Assembly: GCA_036004685.1 (NCBI GenBank)
Contig: DASYRE010000054.1
Span: forward strand, 62,001-126,000
Reading direction: 5' to 3'
Origin: Candidatus Polarisedimenticolia bacterium
GTDB lineage: Bacteria; Acidobacteriota; Polarisedimenticolia; Gp22-AA2; AA152
DNA: 64,000 nucleotides
This document shows positions 7,343 through 14,636 of the stretch, in pieces. The stretch's first letter is position 1. Each line of letters opens with the position of its first letter. The notes below the pieces were generated by a model. The model had not been told where the DNA came from, did not search any database, and saw nothing but the letters and a program-made list of their open reading frames with translations. Made by a program: the position numbers and the translations under genes.

Positions 7343-9082
7343 ATGCGAGCGCGGCATTGGGAGCGTCGGCGCCGGGACCTCACCTACGTCCTACTGTTCA
7401 CGGCCGTGGTCCTCGTCTCCGCCTTCCTCTACGAGCATGGCGCCCGGGTGCGGCTGGTCCCGGAGGCGATCGGCACCGACCTGATCCACCTCGTCGGCTA
7501 CACCGCCGCCTCGTTCCTGAGAATGCTGGCCGCCTATCTATTCTCGCTCCTGTTCGCCGTCGCCTGCGGGACGCTGGCGACGACGGGCCCGTCGCGCGAG
7601 CGGATGATTCTGCCGTTTTTGGACATCATGCAGTCGGTTCCGGTCCTCGGGTTCTTCCCGGCGGCGGTCCACTTCTTCGTCCAGATGACCCGGGGAAGCC
7701 GCCTCGGCGTGGAGATGGCCGCCATCTTCCTGATTTTCACCTGCCAGGCGTGGAACATGGCGTTCGGCGTGTACGAGGGGATCAGCACCATCCCCGCCGA
7801 CGCCCGGGAAGTGGTCGCCTCGTTCGGCTGCAGCAAGTGGCGCAGCTTCGTGCGCCTGCTCCTCCCCTCGGCGATCCCCAAGCTCGTCTACAACAGCATC
7901 CTGTCGTGGTCCGGAGGATGGTACTTCCTGATCGCCTGCGAGATCATCGCGCTCGGACCCGCGCGCTACCGCCTGCCGGGACTCGGATCCTATTTGATCA
8001 AGACGACCGAGGAGGGGAATCTAGCCGGAACCTTCACCGGACTGGCCCTGCTGACGCTCGTGGTTCTGGCCATGGACCTGCTGATCTGGGCCCCCCTCTC
8101 CGCCTGGGCGGGAAAGTTCCGCTACGAATTCGCTACCGAATCTTCGCAGGCCGAGACGAGGCTTCCGCTCGTGTTCGTGGGGGGTGCGGCGGTGGCCCGG
8201 GGGATCCGCAAGGTCTTCCGCCCGCTGACGCGGCGGCTGAGGCTGCTCAGGCGCCGGGGGGTCCGATGGCTGCGGCATCACGGGCTGGAATTCGCCAAGC
8301 GGGTCTTCTCGGCGAAGACGGGCCGGGCGACGCGGACCGCCTTCGGCTGGCTGCTGGGGGTCGCGGCGGTGTATCTCGGAGTCCGGGCCGGGATCGCGCT
8401 GGCCCACGGTCTGGCCCTGCCATGGCCGGAGGAGGCCCGCAAGATCCCCCTCTACCTGTTGCTGTCGTTCCTGCGGCTGGCGGCCGCCTACACGATCGCC
8501 CTTTCCTGGACGATCCCGATCGCCCTCTGGGTCGGGGTAAGTCCGCGTCTGTCGCGTTTCGCGACCCCGCTCGCCGAGATCTTCGCCTCGCTGCCCGCCA
8601 CGGCGCTGTTTCCGCTGATCGTCGTCATCGTGATCCGCACTTCGGGCGGGATGAACCTCGCGTCGGTCCTTCTGGCGCTGACCGGGATGCAGTGGTACCT
8701 TCTGTTCAACCTGATCGCCGGAGTCCGCAGCATTCCCAGTGAGCTGAGGGAGGCGGCCCGCTCGCTCGGGCTGAGCCGGTGGATGACGTGGCGCAAAGTG
8801 GATCTTCCCGCGCTGCTGCCGTCCCTCGTCACGGGAAGCATCACGTCCTGGGGCGGGGGATGGAATTCCCTGATCGTCTCCGAGTACCTCGTCTACAAGG
8901 AGAAAGTCTACTCCGTCCGCGGGATCGGCTCGCTGCTGGATCGGGCGACCTACGTGACGGGCGATCAGAAGCTGATCCTGCTGGCGCTCCTCGCGCTGGT
9001 GGGCACGATCGTCCTGCTGAACCGTTTCGTCTGGCACCGGCTGTACGTGCTGGTGGCCGACCGTTATAAGATTGACGCCTGA
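7343..9082 (+). CDS. Fused double permease of a NitT/TauT-type ABC transporter
   Basis: 579 residues containing two copies of the binding-protein-dependent permease domain. The first is about residues 50-250, with EAA-loop region PADAREVVASFGCSKWRSF; the second is about 365-570, with PSELREAARSLGLSRWMTW. A basic linker of about 80 residues joins them. Members of this family pair with SsuB/TauB-like ATPases to import nitrate, sulfonates, taurine or similar anions. The two EAA loops show that one polypeptide supplies both membrane halves. The ATPase follows with overlap. No periplasmic binding-protein gene lies nearby, so the substrate cannot be inferred. Confidence 0.93.
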   Translation: MRARHWERRRRDLTYVLLFTAVVLVSAFLYEHGARVRLVPEAIGTDLIHLVGYTAASFLRMLAAYLFSLLFAVACGTLATTGPSRERMILPFLDIMQSVPVLGFFPAAVHFFVQMTRGSRLGVEMAAIFLIFTCQAWNMAFGVYEGISTIPADAREVVASFGCSKWRSFVRLLLPSAIPKLVYNSILSWSGGWYFLIACEIIALGPARYRLPGLGSYLIKTTEEGNLAGTFTGLALLTLVVLAMDLLIWAPLSAWAGKFRYEFATESSQAETRLPLVFVGGAAVARGIRKVFRPLTRRLRLLRRRGVRWLRHHGLEFAKRVFSAKTGRATRTAFGWLLGVAAVYLGVRAGIALAHGLALPWPEEARKIPLYLLLSFLRLAAAYTIALSWTIPIALWVGVSPRLSRFATPLAEIFASLPATALFPLIVVIVIRTSGGMNLASVLLALTGMQWYLLFNLIAGVRSIPSELREAARSLGLSRWMTWRKVDLPALLPSLVTGSITSWGGGWNSLIVSEYLVYKEKVYSVRGIGSLLDRATYVTGDQKLILLALLALVGTIVLLNRFVWHRLYVLVADRYKIDA

Positions 9083-9095
9083 ACAAGGGAGCCGC

Positions 9096-9845
9096 TTGGA
9101 ACTCCTTCGCCTCGAGCAGGTGCGCAAGACGTATCCCCAGCCCCAGGGAACGATCACCGTCCTCAACGGAATCGATCTCTCCATCCAGAAGGACGAGTTC
9201 GTCGCGATCGTCGGTCCGTCGGGCTGCGGGAAGACGACCTTGCTGCGAATCCTCAACGGCCTTCTCGAGCCGACGGAGGGGAGGGTCCTCTACCGCAATC
9301 AGCCGATGGCCGGGGTCAATCTGAGCTGCGCGATGGTCTTCCAATCCTTCGCGTTGCTGCCGTGGCTGACGGTGCGCGGCAACGTCGAGCTGGGCCTGGA
9401 GGCGAGAGGGATGGAAGCCGAAGCCCGCGCGCGCAAGGCGGGGTTCTTCATCGACAAGGTGGGGCTCGACGGCTACGAGGAAGCCTATCCGCGCGAGCTC
9501 TCGGGGGGCATGAAGCAGCGGGTCGGGCTGGCGAGGGCCGTGGCGGTGGAGCCGGAAGTGCTGCTCATGGACGAGCCCTTCTCGGCGCTGGACGCCCTGA
9601 CCTCCGTGGCATTGCGCGAAGAGCTGCTCGACATCTGGAGGGACTCCGAAATTCCCCTCTCCACGATCATCCTCGTGACGCACATCATCGAGGAGGCGGT
9701 GGAGCTGGCCGACCGGATCATCGTCCTGTCGAACCGTCCCGCCAGAATCCTGCGAGACATGACGGTTCCGCTCGAGCGCCCGCGGAACAAGAAATCGGAA
9801 GCATTCGGAGAATTCGTCGACCAGATCTTCTCCATGATCGCTTGA
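9096..9845 (+). CDS. ABC transporter ATP-binding protein, SsuB/TauB/NrtD-like
   Basis: About 249 residues with a complete nucleotide-binding domain: Walker A GPSGCGKTTLL, Q-loop VFQSFALLPW, signature LSGGMKQRVGLARA, Walker B VLLMDEPFSALD and the H-loop in LVTHIIEEA. The preferred start is TTG 9096, which has AAGGGAG just upstream. An alternative TTG at 9072 would overlap the permease by 11 nt and lacks a Shine-Dalgarno site. It energises the double permease encoded immediately upstream. In relatives the AAA-associated C-terminal domain is often fused to this ATPase; here it is the next, separate gene. Confidence 0.95.
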   Translation: MELLRLEQVRKTYPQPQGTITVLNGIDLSIQKDEFVAIVGPSGCGKTTLLRILNGLLEPTEGRVLYRNQPMAGVNLSCAMVFQSFALLPWLTVRGNVELGLEARGMEAEARARKAGFFIDKVGLDGYEEAYPRELSGGMKQRVGLARAVAVEPEVLLMDEPFSALDALTSVALREELLDIWRDSEIPLSTIILVTHIIEEAVELADRIIVLSNRPARILRDMTVPLERPRNKKSEAFGEFVDQIFSMIA

Positions 9846-9880: not shown

Positions 9881-10363
9881 ATGGAAGTCACACCGGTACC
9901 GGAAGTGGGAATGACGAGAATCCTGGGACTTCTGGACGTCCTCGACGATCACGGCGGGCGGCAGGACATCTACCGGCTGGCCCGCGACCTGAACTACGAG
10001 TTCGGCGACCTGTTGGGGGTGATCAAGGCGGCCGAGATTCTCGGCCTGGTCGACACGCCGGGCGGGGACGTCGTCCTGCAGCCTTTGGGCAAGCAGATCA
10101 TCGAGTGCGACGTCAACACGAAGAAGAGCCTTCTGAAGAAGCAGGTGAAGGCTCATTCCCTGTTCGCCCACTTCATCGATTTCCTGAAGGGGATGCCGGA
10201 GCGCAAGGCCTCCCGGGAGGAGATCCTCGTCGAGGCGGGCAGGATCCTGCCTCAGGAAAAGCCCCTGTCGATCTTCCGGACTCTGGTGAACTGGGGACGA
10301 TACACGGAGCTGTTCGGATACAACCGCGACGACGACGCCTTCTACCTCGATTCGGAAGGGTGA
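9881..10363 (+). CDS. Stand-alone AAA-associated domain protein of the ABC module
   Basis: 160 residues starting at ATG 9881 behind GGAAGGGAG. The sequence resembles the AAA-associated C-terminal domain (winged-helix-like, e.g. YRLARDLNYEFGDLLGVIKA followed by LGLVDTPGGDVVLQPLGKQI) usually found as the tail of NitT/TauT ATPases. The 35-bp gap and its own ribosome-binding site argue against a simple frameshift of a once-fused gene. A regulatory role on the transporter ATPase is inferred from family context. It is the last gene of the operon, which meets the terminator hairpin at 10398. Confidence 0.85.
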   Translation: MEVTPVPEVGMTRILGLLDVLDDHGGRQDIYRLARDLNYEFGDLLGVIKAAEILGLVDTPGGDVVLQPLGKQIIECDVNTKKSLLKKQVKAHSLFAHFIDFLKGMPERKASREEILVEAGRILPQEKPLSIFRTLVNWGRYTELFGYNRDDDAFYLDSEG

Positions 10364-10390
10364 GCCGATCCTCGTTTCCCGCTCCGTTAC

Positions 10391-10526
10391 GAAAACGAAG
10401 AAGGCGGCCCGCATCGAGCCGCCTTCTTATACCGGGGGCAAGAGTCCCCGGGGTGTAAGGTCGGGGTTGGGGCCCCGAGCCTTTCAGGCTTCGTGGTCAC
10501 CGGCTGCGCGCCTGCTTGACCTGTCT
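10391..10526 (-). ncRNA. Unidentified small RNA, about 130 nt
   Basis: A leftward transcription unit with no credible open reading frame. It is bounded by a near-consensus promoter (10533-10561) and an intrinsic terminator (10398-10428 plus T-run to about 10391). The predicted start is near 10526. By eye the RNA folds into consecutive hairpins: GGTCA...TGACC; GCCT-GAAA-GGC with a GNRA-like loop; CGGGG-CCCCAA-CCCCG; CCGGGG...CCCCGG; then the terminator. I do not see the GGAAG/AGCAG signature of SRP RNA, the large central bubble of 6S RNA, or tmRNA/RNase P motifs. It faces the end of the ABC operon, so an antisense effect on that transcript's 3' end is possible but unproven. Confidence 0.7.
10398..10428. 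terminator. Bidirectional intrinsic terminator
   Basis: Perfect 11-bp stem, AAGAAGGCGGC (10398-10408) and GCCGCCTTCTT (10418-10428), 9-nt loop. Read rightward it follows the ABC operon. Read leftward it ends the small RNA and is followed by CGTTTTCG, a better T-run. Confidence 0.85.
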
Positions 10527-10532
10527 GCCTCA

Positions 10533-10561
10533 TCTATACGCCCCGGCCCGGCGCCTGTCAA
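10533..10561 (-). promoter_or_regulatory. Consensus sigma-70 promoter of the small RNA
   Basis: Leftward -35 TTGACA (10556-10561), exactly 17 bp, -10 TATAGA (10533-10538). One of the strongest promoters in the window. Confidence 0.85.
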
Positions 10562-10726
10562 CCGAAAAATCTCGCTGGAAAAACCGGCAAGCCGGGTCTT
10601 CCCGGCGCGCGGGGATCGCCGCTCTTCGTTGGGGGACACGGGGGGGGACACGGGCAGCGGGGCAGGAGCGCGGCGCGCTGCGGCCGACGCGATGCGGGGG
10701 CCCGAGCGCCCGCGGCGAGCGGCGCC

Positions 10727-11296
10727 GTGACCGCGAGTCGCGACGGCGGGATCAACGGGCGGCGCCGCTCGATCGCCCTCACGGGATGGCTGTGCGTCGC
10801 GCTGGGCGCGCTCGTCGTCCTTTCCGCGGCCGCCCTGGCGCTGGTCGGGATCCTGCGGGCGTTCTTCGCGGCCGAAGGGCTCGATCCGGTCGCCGGCCTG
10901 GAAGATTCGCTCGATCCCTTCGGAAGGATGATCCTCGCGAACGTCGCCCTGGTCTCGACGGTCCAGCTGCTCCTGGGGATCGCGACCCTGGTCATCGGAA
11001 TTGGGTTCGTGAAGACGAGGCCGTGGGCGAGGCCGGGGCTCGAAGCGCTGGCGTGGGTGACGCTGGCGGGATCGATCGCGTCGGGGGCCTGGGGAATCGC
11101 CGCCGGGCCGGGGCCGGCCCCGCCGGGTGGCTTTTCCTCGAAGGGCTTCTTCCTCGTGGCGGCGGATCTGGCCCTGGCGATCGCGCAATGCGCCGCCTGC
11201 GTCCTGCTGATCCGGTACCTTCGACAGCCGGGCGTTCGGAGCGCCTTCCGGCGGGAGGCGCAAGCCGGTCCCGGCCGAGTGGCCGGCGATCGGTAG
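10727..11296 (+). CDS. Hypothetical membrane protein, four predicted helices
   Basis: 189 residues from GTG 10727. Four hydrophobic stretches fit transmembrane helices (about residues 17-42, 70-95, 103-122 and 140-160), with a basic N-terminus and a basic C-terminal tail. No family recognised. It stands alone between the small RNA and a convergent zinc-ribbon gene. The upstream 160 bp are GC-rich with no clear promoter, and there is no strong Shine-Dalgarno site, so the start is tentative. Confidence 0.6.
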   Translation: MTASRDGGINGRRRSIALTGWLCVALGALVVLSAAALALVGILRAFFAAEGLDPVAGLEDSLDPFGRMILANVALVSTVQLLLGIATLVIGIGFVKTRPWARPGLEALAWVTLAGSIASGAWGIAAGPGPAPPGGFSSKGFFLVAADLALAIAQCAACVLLIRYLRQPGVRSAFRREAQAGPGRVAGDR

Positions 11297-11749: not shown

Positions 11750-13822
11750 CTACCGCCCGCGCGCCGCGCGGCGGGGAAGGATCTCGTCGAGGATTCGGCC
11801 GGCGCCGTAGACTTTCTCCAGCGCCTCGGTCAGTGCCGCGGTATGGACGGCGAGGGCGCGGTTCACGGATTCGTCGAAGCCGTAGTCCCCTCCCAGCGAC
11901 TGGATGTTCCCGTCAAAAATCAATCCCGTGACGCGCCCTTCCCGGTCGATGACCGGCGATCCCGAATTGCCGCCGATGATGTCGTTGGTGGTGCAAAAGT
12001 TCATCGGCGTGGAGGGAGGGAGCGCGGAGCGCGCGGAGAGCCAGCGGGCGGGGAGCGCGAAGGGATCGCTGCCCGTTTCACGGTCGAAGAGGCCGGCGAA
12101 ATCGGTGAGGGGCCGGACCATCTTTCCGTCCTGCGGGAATCCCTTCACCTGACCGTAGGAGAGGCGCAGGGTGAACGTGGCGTCCGGGTAGGCCCGGGTG
12201 CCCTCGATCTCAAAATGGGCCCGCGCCACCAGCTCGTCGTTGCGCTTGAGCACCGATTCGATCTCGTCCTCGAAGGTCTTGCGCAGGGCCCGCGCGTCGG
12301 GATCAATCCGGCGGGCGAGCCCGATCAGCGGATCGTCCGAGGTCTCCAAGGCCGGCCGCCCCGCCTCGAAGAGCTTGCGGCGGACCGCGACATCCTTCAG
12401 CCGGCTTCCCTTCACGAGCGCCTCGGCCAGCGCGCGCGGCGATTCCCTGCCCAGGACCTTCTTCACGAAGGGATCGTCCGCGCCGAGATCTTCGCGAAGC
12501 TTCGTCAGCCCGAACGTCAGGTTCAGGATCTCGAATTCGTCATAGACGGGCGCGGACGAGAAGAGCTTCTGCTTCAGCGCGGGCAGCCTCGATTCGGCGA
12601 ATTCGCGCAGCCGCTTCTCGTTCGGCTTGGGAAGCTCTTCGGCGGCGCGCACCAGCGTCCGGGCGAAATCCAGCAGCGTCGAGCCGAAGGCGCCGCCGGT
12701 CTCCATGGCGGCATAGCGCCGCTGGATCCGCTTCTGGGCGTCCTTGGCCCGCGCGATTGCCTCCCAGGCTCCTCCATAAGTCCGCTTCCGGGAAGAATCC
12801 GCCTCGAGACGCGCGCGGAACGCGTTCTCCGCCTCGACCTTCGAGGCGAAGAACGCCTTGTCGAGCAGCGCCTCGTGCCTGCCGCGCAGCGCCTTCAGGG
12901 AGTTCTCCACCCGCAGCAGGGCGTTCGTCGAGATGCGTCGCTGCTCCGCCCCGCGCTCCTGGAACTGCGTGAGCATCCCGCGCTCCTCGGCGAGCCTGAG
13001 GAGCCTGCTGGGCAGCGCGACGTCGCGCTCGTATTCCAGCTCGGACACCGTGAGCAGCCGCGAGGTGGTGCCGGGATTGCCCGAGACGAACGTCAGGTCG
13101 GAATCCTTCGATCCGGCGGCGGACCAGGCCAGATGGTGCTCGGTTTTCGCCGGCTTGCCGCCTTCGTAGAGACGCAGGAACGAGACGTCCAGGCAGTATC
13201 GCGGGAAATTGAAGTTGTCGGGATCCCCTCCGAAATGCGCGATGTCGGCCTCCGGCGCGAAGACCAGCCGCACGTCCTGGTACCTCTTGTACTTGTAGAG
13301 GTGATAGCGGCCGCCGTGGTACAACGGAACGACGTCGCAGCGCAGCGTCTCGCGGACCGCGCACTCCTTCTCGATGCGCGACATCTCCGCCTTCTGGGCC
13401 TCGTTGTACTGCTGGTCCGCCAGGCCCTTCGTCGCCTCGTCGACGCGCTTCGTGACGTCGGTGATTTCCAGCAGCTGGTTGATCTCGATCTCGGGGCAGC
13501 GGACCTCCTCCGCCTCGCGGCGCGCGAAGAAGCCGTCCGCCATCCGGTCCTGATCGGCGGTGGAGATCTGCTCGATGCAGGAGCGGGCGCAGTGATGGTT
13601 GGTCATCACCAGGCCGCTGCCGGACACCAGACTCCCGGAACAGCCGCCCGCCAGACGGACCGAGGCGAGGCGCACGTGATCCAGCCACTCCTGGCTCGGG
13701 GCGAAGCCGTATTTCTCCTTCACCGTCTCGGAAGGGAAGTTGTCGAAGGTCCACATTCCCTCGTCGGCCCGGACGATTCCCAGGCTTGCGGCGAGCAGGC
13801 CGATGCCGATCCAGCGTTTCAT
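11750..13822 (-). CDS. S46-family dipeptidyl-peptidase (DPP7/DPP11-like)
   Basis: 690 residues, the usual family length. A signal peptide (MKRWIGIGLLAASLGIVRA) leads into DEGMWTFDNFP, the typical mature S46 N-terminus. The catalytic His lies in MTNHHCARSC and the nucleophilic Ser in GGNSGSPVIDREG near the C-terminus. S46 enzymes release dipeptides from oligopeptides in the periplasm and support growth on proteins. ATG 13822 follows AAGGAGA. The gene is monocistronic with a promoter at 13856-13884. S1 specificity (hydrophobic versus acidic) cannot be settled by eye. Confidence 0.95.
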   Translation of the reverse strand: MKRWIGIGLLAASLGIVRADEGMWTFDNFPSETVKEKYGFAPSQEWLDHVRLASVRLAGGCSGSLVSGSGLVMTNHHCARSCIEQISTADQDRMADGFFARREAEEVRCPEIEINQLLEITDVTKRVDEATKGLADQQYNEAQKAEMSRIEKECAVRETLRCDVVPLYHGGRYHLYKYKRYQDVRLVFAPEADIAHFGGDPDNFNFPRYCLDVSFLRLYEGGKPAKTEHHLAWSAAGSKDSDLTFVSGNPGTTSRLLTVSELEYERDVALPSRLLRLAEERGMLTQFQERGAEQRRISTNALLRVENSLKALRGRHEALLDKAFFASKVEAENAFRARLEADSSRKRTYGGAWEAIARAKDAQKRIQRRYAAMETGGAFGSTLLDFARTLVRAAEELPKPNEKRLREFAESRLPALKQKLFSSAPVYDEFEILNLTFGLTKLREDLGADDPFVKKVLGRESPRALAEALVKGSRLKDVAVRRKLFEAGRPALETSDDPLIGLARRIDPDARALRKTFEDEIESVLKRNDELVARAHFEIEGTRAYPDATFTLRLSYGQVKGFPQDGKMVRPLTDFAGLFDRETGSDPFALPARWLSARSALPPSTPMNFCTTNDIIGGNSGSPVIDREGRVTGLIFDGNIQSLGGDYGFDESVNRALAVHTAALTEALEKVYGAGRILDEILPRRAARGR

Positions 13823-13950: not shown

Positions 13951-14039
13951 GACGCTCGATACAGACAGTGAGGCCGCCGCCTCTCATCCGCACTCGCGCC
14001 GATCCGGAAACGCTCCGGGCCGGGAAAGGAGCCATCACG

Positions 14040-14636
14040 ATGTGGGAAAAGCTGACCGCCAAGCCGCTGAAGCCGTCCACCCTGGCCATGGACGGGATTT
14101 CCAAGAAAACCATGGAGGAGCACCACAAGCTCTATCAGGGATACGTGAACAAGACGAACGAGATCATGGAGAAGCTCGCCGGCGCCGACTTGAAGACGGC
14201 CAACCAGGTCTTCAGCGATCTGCGCTCGCTGAAAGTGGATCTCTCCTTCGCCATCGGCGGTGTCAAGAACCACGAGATCTACTTCGAGCACTTGGGGGGG
14301 AAGGGCGGCAAGCCGTCCGGCAAGCTCCTGCAGGCGATCGAGCGCGGGTTCGGGTCGTTCGACGAATGGGCTGCGGACCTGAAGGCGACGGGGATCGCCG
14401 CCCGGGGCTGGGTCTGGCTGGCGTACGACCGGGACTGGCAGCGCTTCTTCAACTACCTCGGCGACGCGCAGAACACCTTCCCGGTCTGGAACGCCACGCC
14501 GATCCTGGCGCTCGACACCTACGAGCACGCCTATTTCATCGATCACGGCGTGAACCGCGGCGCCTACATCGACGCGTTCATAAAGAACGTCGACTGGGAC
14601 GCGGTCCTGAAGAACTTCGAAACGCTTCACCTCTGA
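14040..14636 (+). CDS. Iron/manganese superoxide dismutase
   Basis: 198 residues from ATG 14040, well placed behind GGAAAGGAG. The SodFM ligand set is visible: His in EEHHKLYQGYV, His in KNHEIYFEHL, and Asp plus His in LALDTYEHAYFIDHG. It disproportionates superoxide to peroxide and oxygen; with no signal peptide it is cytoplasmic. The hallmark is DTYEHAYF rather than the usual DxWEHAYY, so this belongs to a divergent subgroup and metal preference cannot be called from the motif alone. The gene is followed by a strong hairpin at 14649-14679. Confidence 0.95.
   Translation: MWEKLTAKPLKPSTLAMDGISKKTMEEHHKLYQGYVNKTNEIMEKLAGADLKTANQVFSDLRSLKVDLSFAIGGVKNHEIYFEHLGGKGGKPSGKLLQAIERGFGSFDEWAADLKATGIAARGWVWLAYDRDWQRFFNYLGDAQNTFPVWNATPILALDTYEHAYFIDHGVNRGAYIDAFIKNVDWDAVLKNFETLHL

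Follow-up and report, generated by a model that had tools for sequence, protein, structure and literature searches.

The closest described counterparts of the element presented here come from Rhizobiales. RFMSmelC023, a family of trans-encoded small RNAs (sRNAs), is described as having three parts: the 5′ domain varies in both length and sequence, the middle one holds two hairpins whose highly conserved loops sit on stems that covary, and an intrinsic terminator closes the 3′ end (PMC3927594). RFMSmelA075 and RFMSmelA099 carry anti-Shine-Dalgarno loops, CCUCCUCCC, which are thought to pair with ribosome-binding sites and are found several per RNA and in several copies per genome (PMC3927594). 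From Acidobacteria themselves, the candidate structured RNAs Acido-1 and Acido-Lenti-1 have been described (PMC2864571). The element that we analyzed is located in a window of 64 kb (the whole stretch of DNA under study) from a Polarisedimenticolia genome, hereafter G000. By description, it follows the same plan as RFMSmelC023, though in another phylum, and differs from it in that only the loop of one hairpin (P3) is invariant, while that of the other (P2) varies between species. With RFMSmelA075 and RFMSmelA099 it shares a pyrimidine-rich conserved hairpin loop; yet, it has a single such loop, ACUCUUGC, is present as one gene, and shows no enrichment of sequences complementary to this loop ahead of start codons. 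Acido-1 (RF01686) and Acido-Lenti-1 (RF01687) come from the same phylum as the element; neither was among the local matches even at E-values up to 10.

An earlier note on this DNA had interpreted the locus as an orphan small RNA gene, and this reading is supported by the lack of an Rfam match, by compensatory changes, and by a promoter, orientation and terminator that recur in four species. Judging from these features, we consider it very probable that this is a real, lineage-specific small RNA gene of the ordinary bacterial regulator kind, whose family is missing from Rfam. The leftward TTGACA-N17-TATAGA promoter reported in that note is present as described on the minus strand (10533–10561), with TTGACA at 10561–10556, a 17-nt spacer ending in GGGGCG and TATAGA at 10538–10533, and it recurs in three relatives. 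Reading of the flanks in all four genomes of the family gave TTGAC(A/T), exactly 17 nt and TATA(G/C)A, with GGGCG preceding the −10 box. The pattern TTGACN-N16–18-TATANA has just two occurrences in the window; the one at the locus was overlooked by a generic promoter scanner because the scanner accepts only T as the sixth base of the −10 box. We also noticed that a sister-family genome (G010) has a near-identical promoter stretch, TTGACAGACGCCTGGCCGGGGCGTATAT, at an unrelated position (L005:1501–1528), a recurrence that points to GGGGCGTATA as part of a promoter consensus in this lineage.

The predicted RNA of about 135 nt would extend from 10526 to 10392 on the minus strand, its start being deduced from promoter spacing and its end from the terminator. 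Counted from the inferred start in the same manner, the predicted lengths are 135 nt in G000, 199 nt in G003, 178 nt in G002 and 254 nt in G001. The terminator stem (10398–10428) consists of 14 pairs, including one G-U. The perfect 11-bp stem noted before corresponds to its outer 11 pairs, whereas the T-run said to follow it is interrupted in G000 (UUCUUCGUUUU). The T-run is better in the relatives, e.g., CUUCUUUUUU in G001, and in G001–G003 a T-run is found on the strand of the ABC operon too. From its position, the terminator can end this convergent operon as well as the small RNA.

The fold of 10388–10530 is more stable than that of dinucleotide shuffles (z −4.2, or −4.5 when taken from the predicted start). 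With the terminator removed, z is only −1.6 in G000; fold stability is thus largely due to the terminator, and the folding z-scores without it are weak in three of the four species. The predicted fold opens with a 5′ hairpin, GGUCA...UGACC (10495–10521, minus strand), within a domain that gave no convincing alignment between the species, varying in both sequence and length. It is followed by P2 (10457–10483, minus strand), which has closing pairs RAGG...CCUU and an interior that changes but mostly remains paired, three of its pairs changing on both sides among the four species. P3 (10432–10451, minus strand) reads CCGGGG-ACUCUUGC-CCCCGG, and its 8-nt loop (10438–10445) is identical in all four species. 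In G001 the stem is CCCGGG on either side of the same ACUCUUGC loop, i.e., one G-C to C-G exchange on both sides, which is not proof alone since in a short frame it alters two Pro codons synonymously. A short A-rich linker separates P3 from the terminator. The GCCT-GAAA-GGC hairpin singled out previously does exist, but it competes with P2, which is the hairpin conserved in the relatives; the notable hairpin is the one presenting the ACUCUUGC loop.

Alignment of the same intergenic region in related genomes, which had been suggested as a check, revealed conservation in four species. A search at the DNA level, covering 60 relatives, matched the element's 3′ part in all three other examined genomes of the same acidobacterial family, with model-free blastn E-values of 3e-5 to 3e-10. 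In all four genomes the element is found in the same place and orientation: it is convergent with the gene for an AAA_assoc_C protein (PF09821; 160 aa; 9881–10363, plus strand) and lies right beyond the 3′ end of that gene. The AAA_assoc_C gene stands at the end of an ABC transporter operon, and its product is 91–93% identical in the three relatives. The last hundred bases of the predicted RNA align across the four species, and P2, P3 and the terminator form a conserved 3′ module. When the G000 intergenic region (10364–10760) was compared with the relatives by blastn, this module was the sole convincing match; the others were short and at chance level, in addition to the self-complementary terminator.

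The compensatory stem changes anticipated for a genuine structure were also found. Four pairs change on both sides in a plain MAFFT alignment, a number reached by 6 of 500 shuffles, and six do so in a model-fitted alignment, which itself leans towards the structure (1 of 500 shuffles reaching six). Slid controls contained none or one such pair, and sliding the partner by 1–3 columns lowered pairing from 98% to 39–63%. With only four sequences, this covariation is suggestive and partly fitted. Of 114 pair cells, 112 were kept on the minus strand vs. 105 on the opposite one; it is the nine G-U vs. two A-C cells that make the minus strand the better paired. The strand favored by pairing agrees with the direction of the promoter and terminator.

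The element seems confined to one acidobacterial family, as far as searched. Covariance models scored the four family members at 115, 112, 107 and 83 bits with the terminator and at 67–85 bits without it, values that are high by construction because the same four sequences built the models; independent support comes from the model-free blastn matches and from the position common to the four genomes. Elsewhere in 396 Acidobacteriota genomes nothing exceeded 37 bits with the terminator or 28 bits without it. In the part of these weak matches that was read in sequence, the loop was absent, and those among them from the first model were mostly plain GC-rich terminators. The exact P3 pattern was found on 12 contigs of GTDB r220. 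Two of them, both from acidobacterial metagenome assemblies, carry the gene and are G003 and G002 themselves: JAKEFJ010000050.1 (G003:C193) and QHVQ01000086.1 (G002:C42). The context of the other ten was read, and none has the P2-P3-terminator module. Allowing up to two mismatches in the P3 pattern gave counts resembling those of a reversed control among 149 relatives. One stretch of a Gordonia polyisoprenivorans contig (L069:2640–2700) contains CCGGGGACTCTTGCCCCGG flanked by further AACTCTTGCC copies; it looks like a short repeat and is unrelated.

We weighed several other readings of the locus. The imperfect T-run of G000 would fit a chance coincidence of promoter-like and terminator-like sequence with no gene at all, but four species retain the 3′ module and a promoter with the same 17-nt spacer, and not the remaining intergenic sequence, which makes this highly improbable. 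Membership of a known RNA family (6S, SRP, STnc250 or Pxr) in degenerate form is largely refuted and retains a negligible probability. The covariance search (Infernal against Rfam) proposed in the earlier note detected no family at gathering score in the whole window, and neither 6S RNA (RF00013) nor SRP RNA (RF00169) gave a covariance match at the locus. Both are encoded elsewhere in the genome, the former at G000:C5:21634-21810 (6S is present in most of the class) and the latter at G000:C54:142904-142990, on the same contig but 70 kb away. What speaks for a known family is the best local score, obtained for STnc250 (RF01409), with which the element shares a GCCUGAAAGGC hairpin and a GGCG terminator. 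This match rests on the terminator and the small hairpin and reaches 28.9 bits against a cut-off of 42; moreover, local scans of the homologues in G003 and G001 gave nothing consistent, yielded no score above a cut-off and did not recover STnc250. Likewise, it is very improbable that the locus is a short protein gene or specifies a dual-function RNA that is not purely non-coding. In G001–G003, translation of the P3 region in one frame gives DPGTLAPG-stop; G001 has a 20-codon frame starting with ATG and G002 a 25-codon one starting with GTG, and the stem change of G001 is synonymous in the DPGTLAPG frame. However, the species have no start in common, the G003 frame is shifted upstream, G000 has no stop at that place, the upstream residues are unrelated, and the loop keeps third codon positions as well. 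The statement that the stretch contains no credible open reading frame holds, with the caveat of a 48-codon ATG frame (10533–10387, minus strand) whose ATG overlaps the −10 box and thus lies upstream of the predicted transcript; it is not conserved, as G002 has no such ATG. Altogether, a short protein at this locus appears unlikely.

Two further readings accept a transcript and assign it another role. In the first, it would be a local antisense or insulating element with no function in trans, in which the RNA and the bidirectional terminator separate the ABC operon from its neighbors or regulate it by read-through. Convergence with the operon, pointed out before together with the joint terminator, is indeed kept in all four species, the terminator can work both ways, and read-through could yield antisense RNA, but nothing shows this to be the function. 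Convergent genes with a common terminator are commonplace, and the invariant loop and covarying P2 upstream of the terminator would be left unexplained; we therefore hold this reading to be improbable. In the second, the RNA would use its P3 loop to bind a protein other than CsrA, or to act as a decoy for such a protein, instead of pairing with mRNA. An unvarying 8-nt loop on a variable stem is how loops that bind a protein or an RNA typically look, and no target enrichment was found before start codons, yet the loop matched no known protein motif, and on balance we regard protein binding as a possible but unlikely role. A CsrA-sequestering RNA of the CsrB/RsmY kind was also considered and is unlikely, as no CsrA gene was detected in any of the four family genomes.

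In the reading that we prefer, a free-standing sRNA gene acting in trans, a single-copy gene would be transcribed leftward from the sigma-70-type promoter, and the transcript would be ended by the intrinsic terminator common to the convergent ABC operon. The RNA would act by base pairing, with ACUCUUGC exposed as its seed on the rigid P3 hairpin. Hfq could bind to the U-rich tail and to the A-rich linker that precedes the terminator, and variation of the 5′ domain would be tolerated. In all four species, sequence signals for a promoter and a terminator enclose a short non-coding stretch, and with its own promoter, single copy, invariant loop, A-rich linker and terminator the predicted RNA is built like a trans-acting base-pairing sRNA. 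To this reading as a whole, with P3 as the seed and perhaps Hfq as a partner, we would give about even chances. Two Hfq-family genes are present in each of the four genomes (in G000 at G000:C10:90081-90266 and G000:C30:9645-9806). In every species the pair consists of one canonical (80–82 bits) and one divergent (32–35 bits) member. We searched for targets with the complements of two sequences, the loop octamer and one heptamer, 2–12 nt before ATG only. Within this scope, the complement was not enriched (14 occurrences vs. 16 in the reversed control, and 121 vs. 106 in a second count), the eight-base matches precede unrelated frames, and no target is common to the species, so that protein binding or a site elsewhere in the mRNA may be involved instead. 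It is doubtful, though conceivable, that the ACUCUUGC loop on its GC-rich hairpin before the terminator defines a previously undescribed RNA family that recognizes a specific partner (a set of mRNAs or a protein) in a manner unseen in the studied phyla.

A small RNA gene of this well-known kind alone opens no new mechanism. The locus would add a structured small-RNA family missing from Rfam, with a precise and testable invariant loop; the lineage is covered here by draft and metagenome assemblies. It also illustrates how a few relatives can lend support to a small RNA spotted by eye in a single genome.

As for the gene neighborhood, the ABC operon of the window comprises a permease gene (7343–9082), in which BPD_transp_1 is matched twice within one protein, and an ATPase gene (9072–9845), behind which AAA_assoc_C is encoded as a separate gene. 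Identity to the AAA_assoc_C homologues of the sister family, which belongs to the same order, is only 27–37%. The locus is further adjoined by genes encoding a peptidase S46 (11750–13822, minus strand) and an iron/manganese superoxide dismutase (13968–14636, plus strand).
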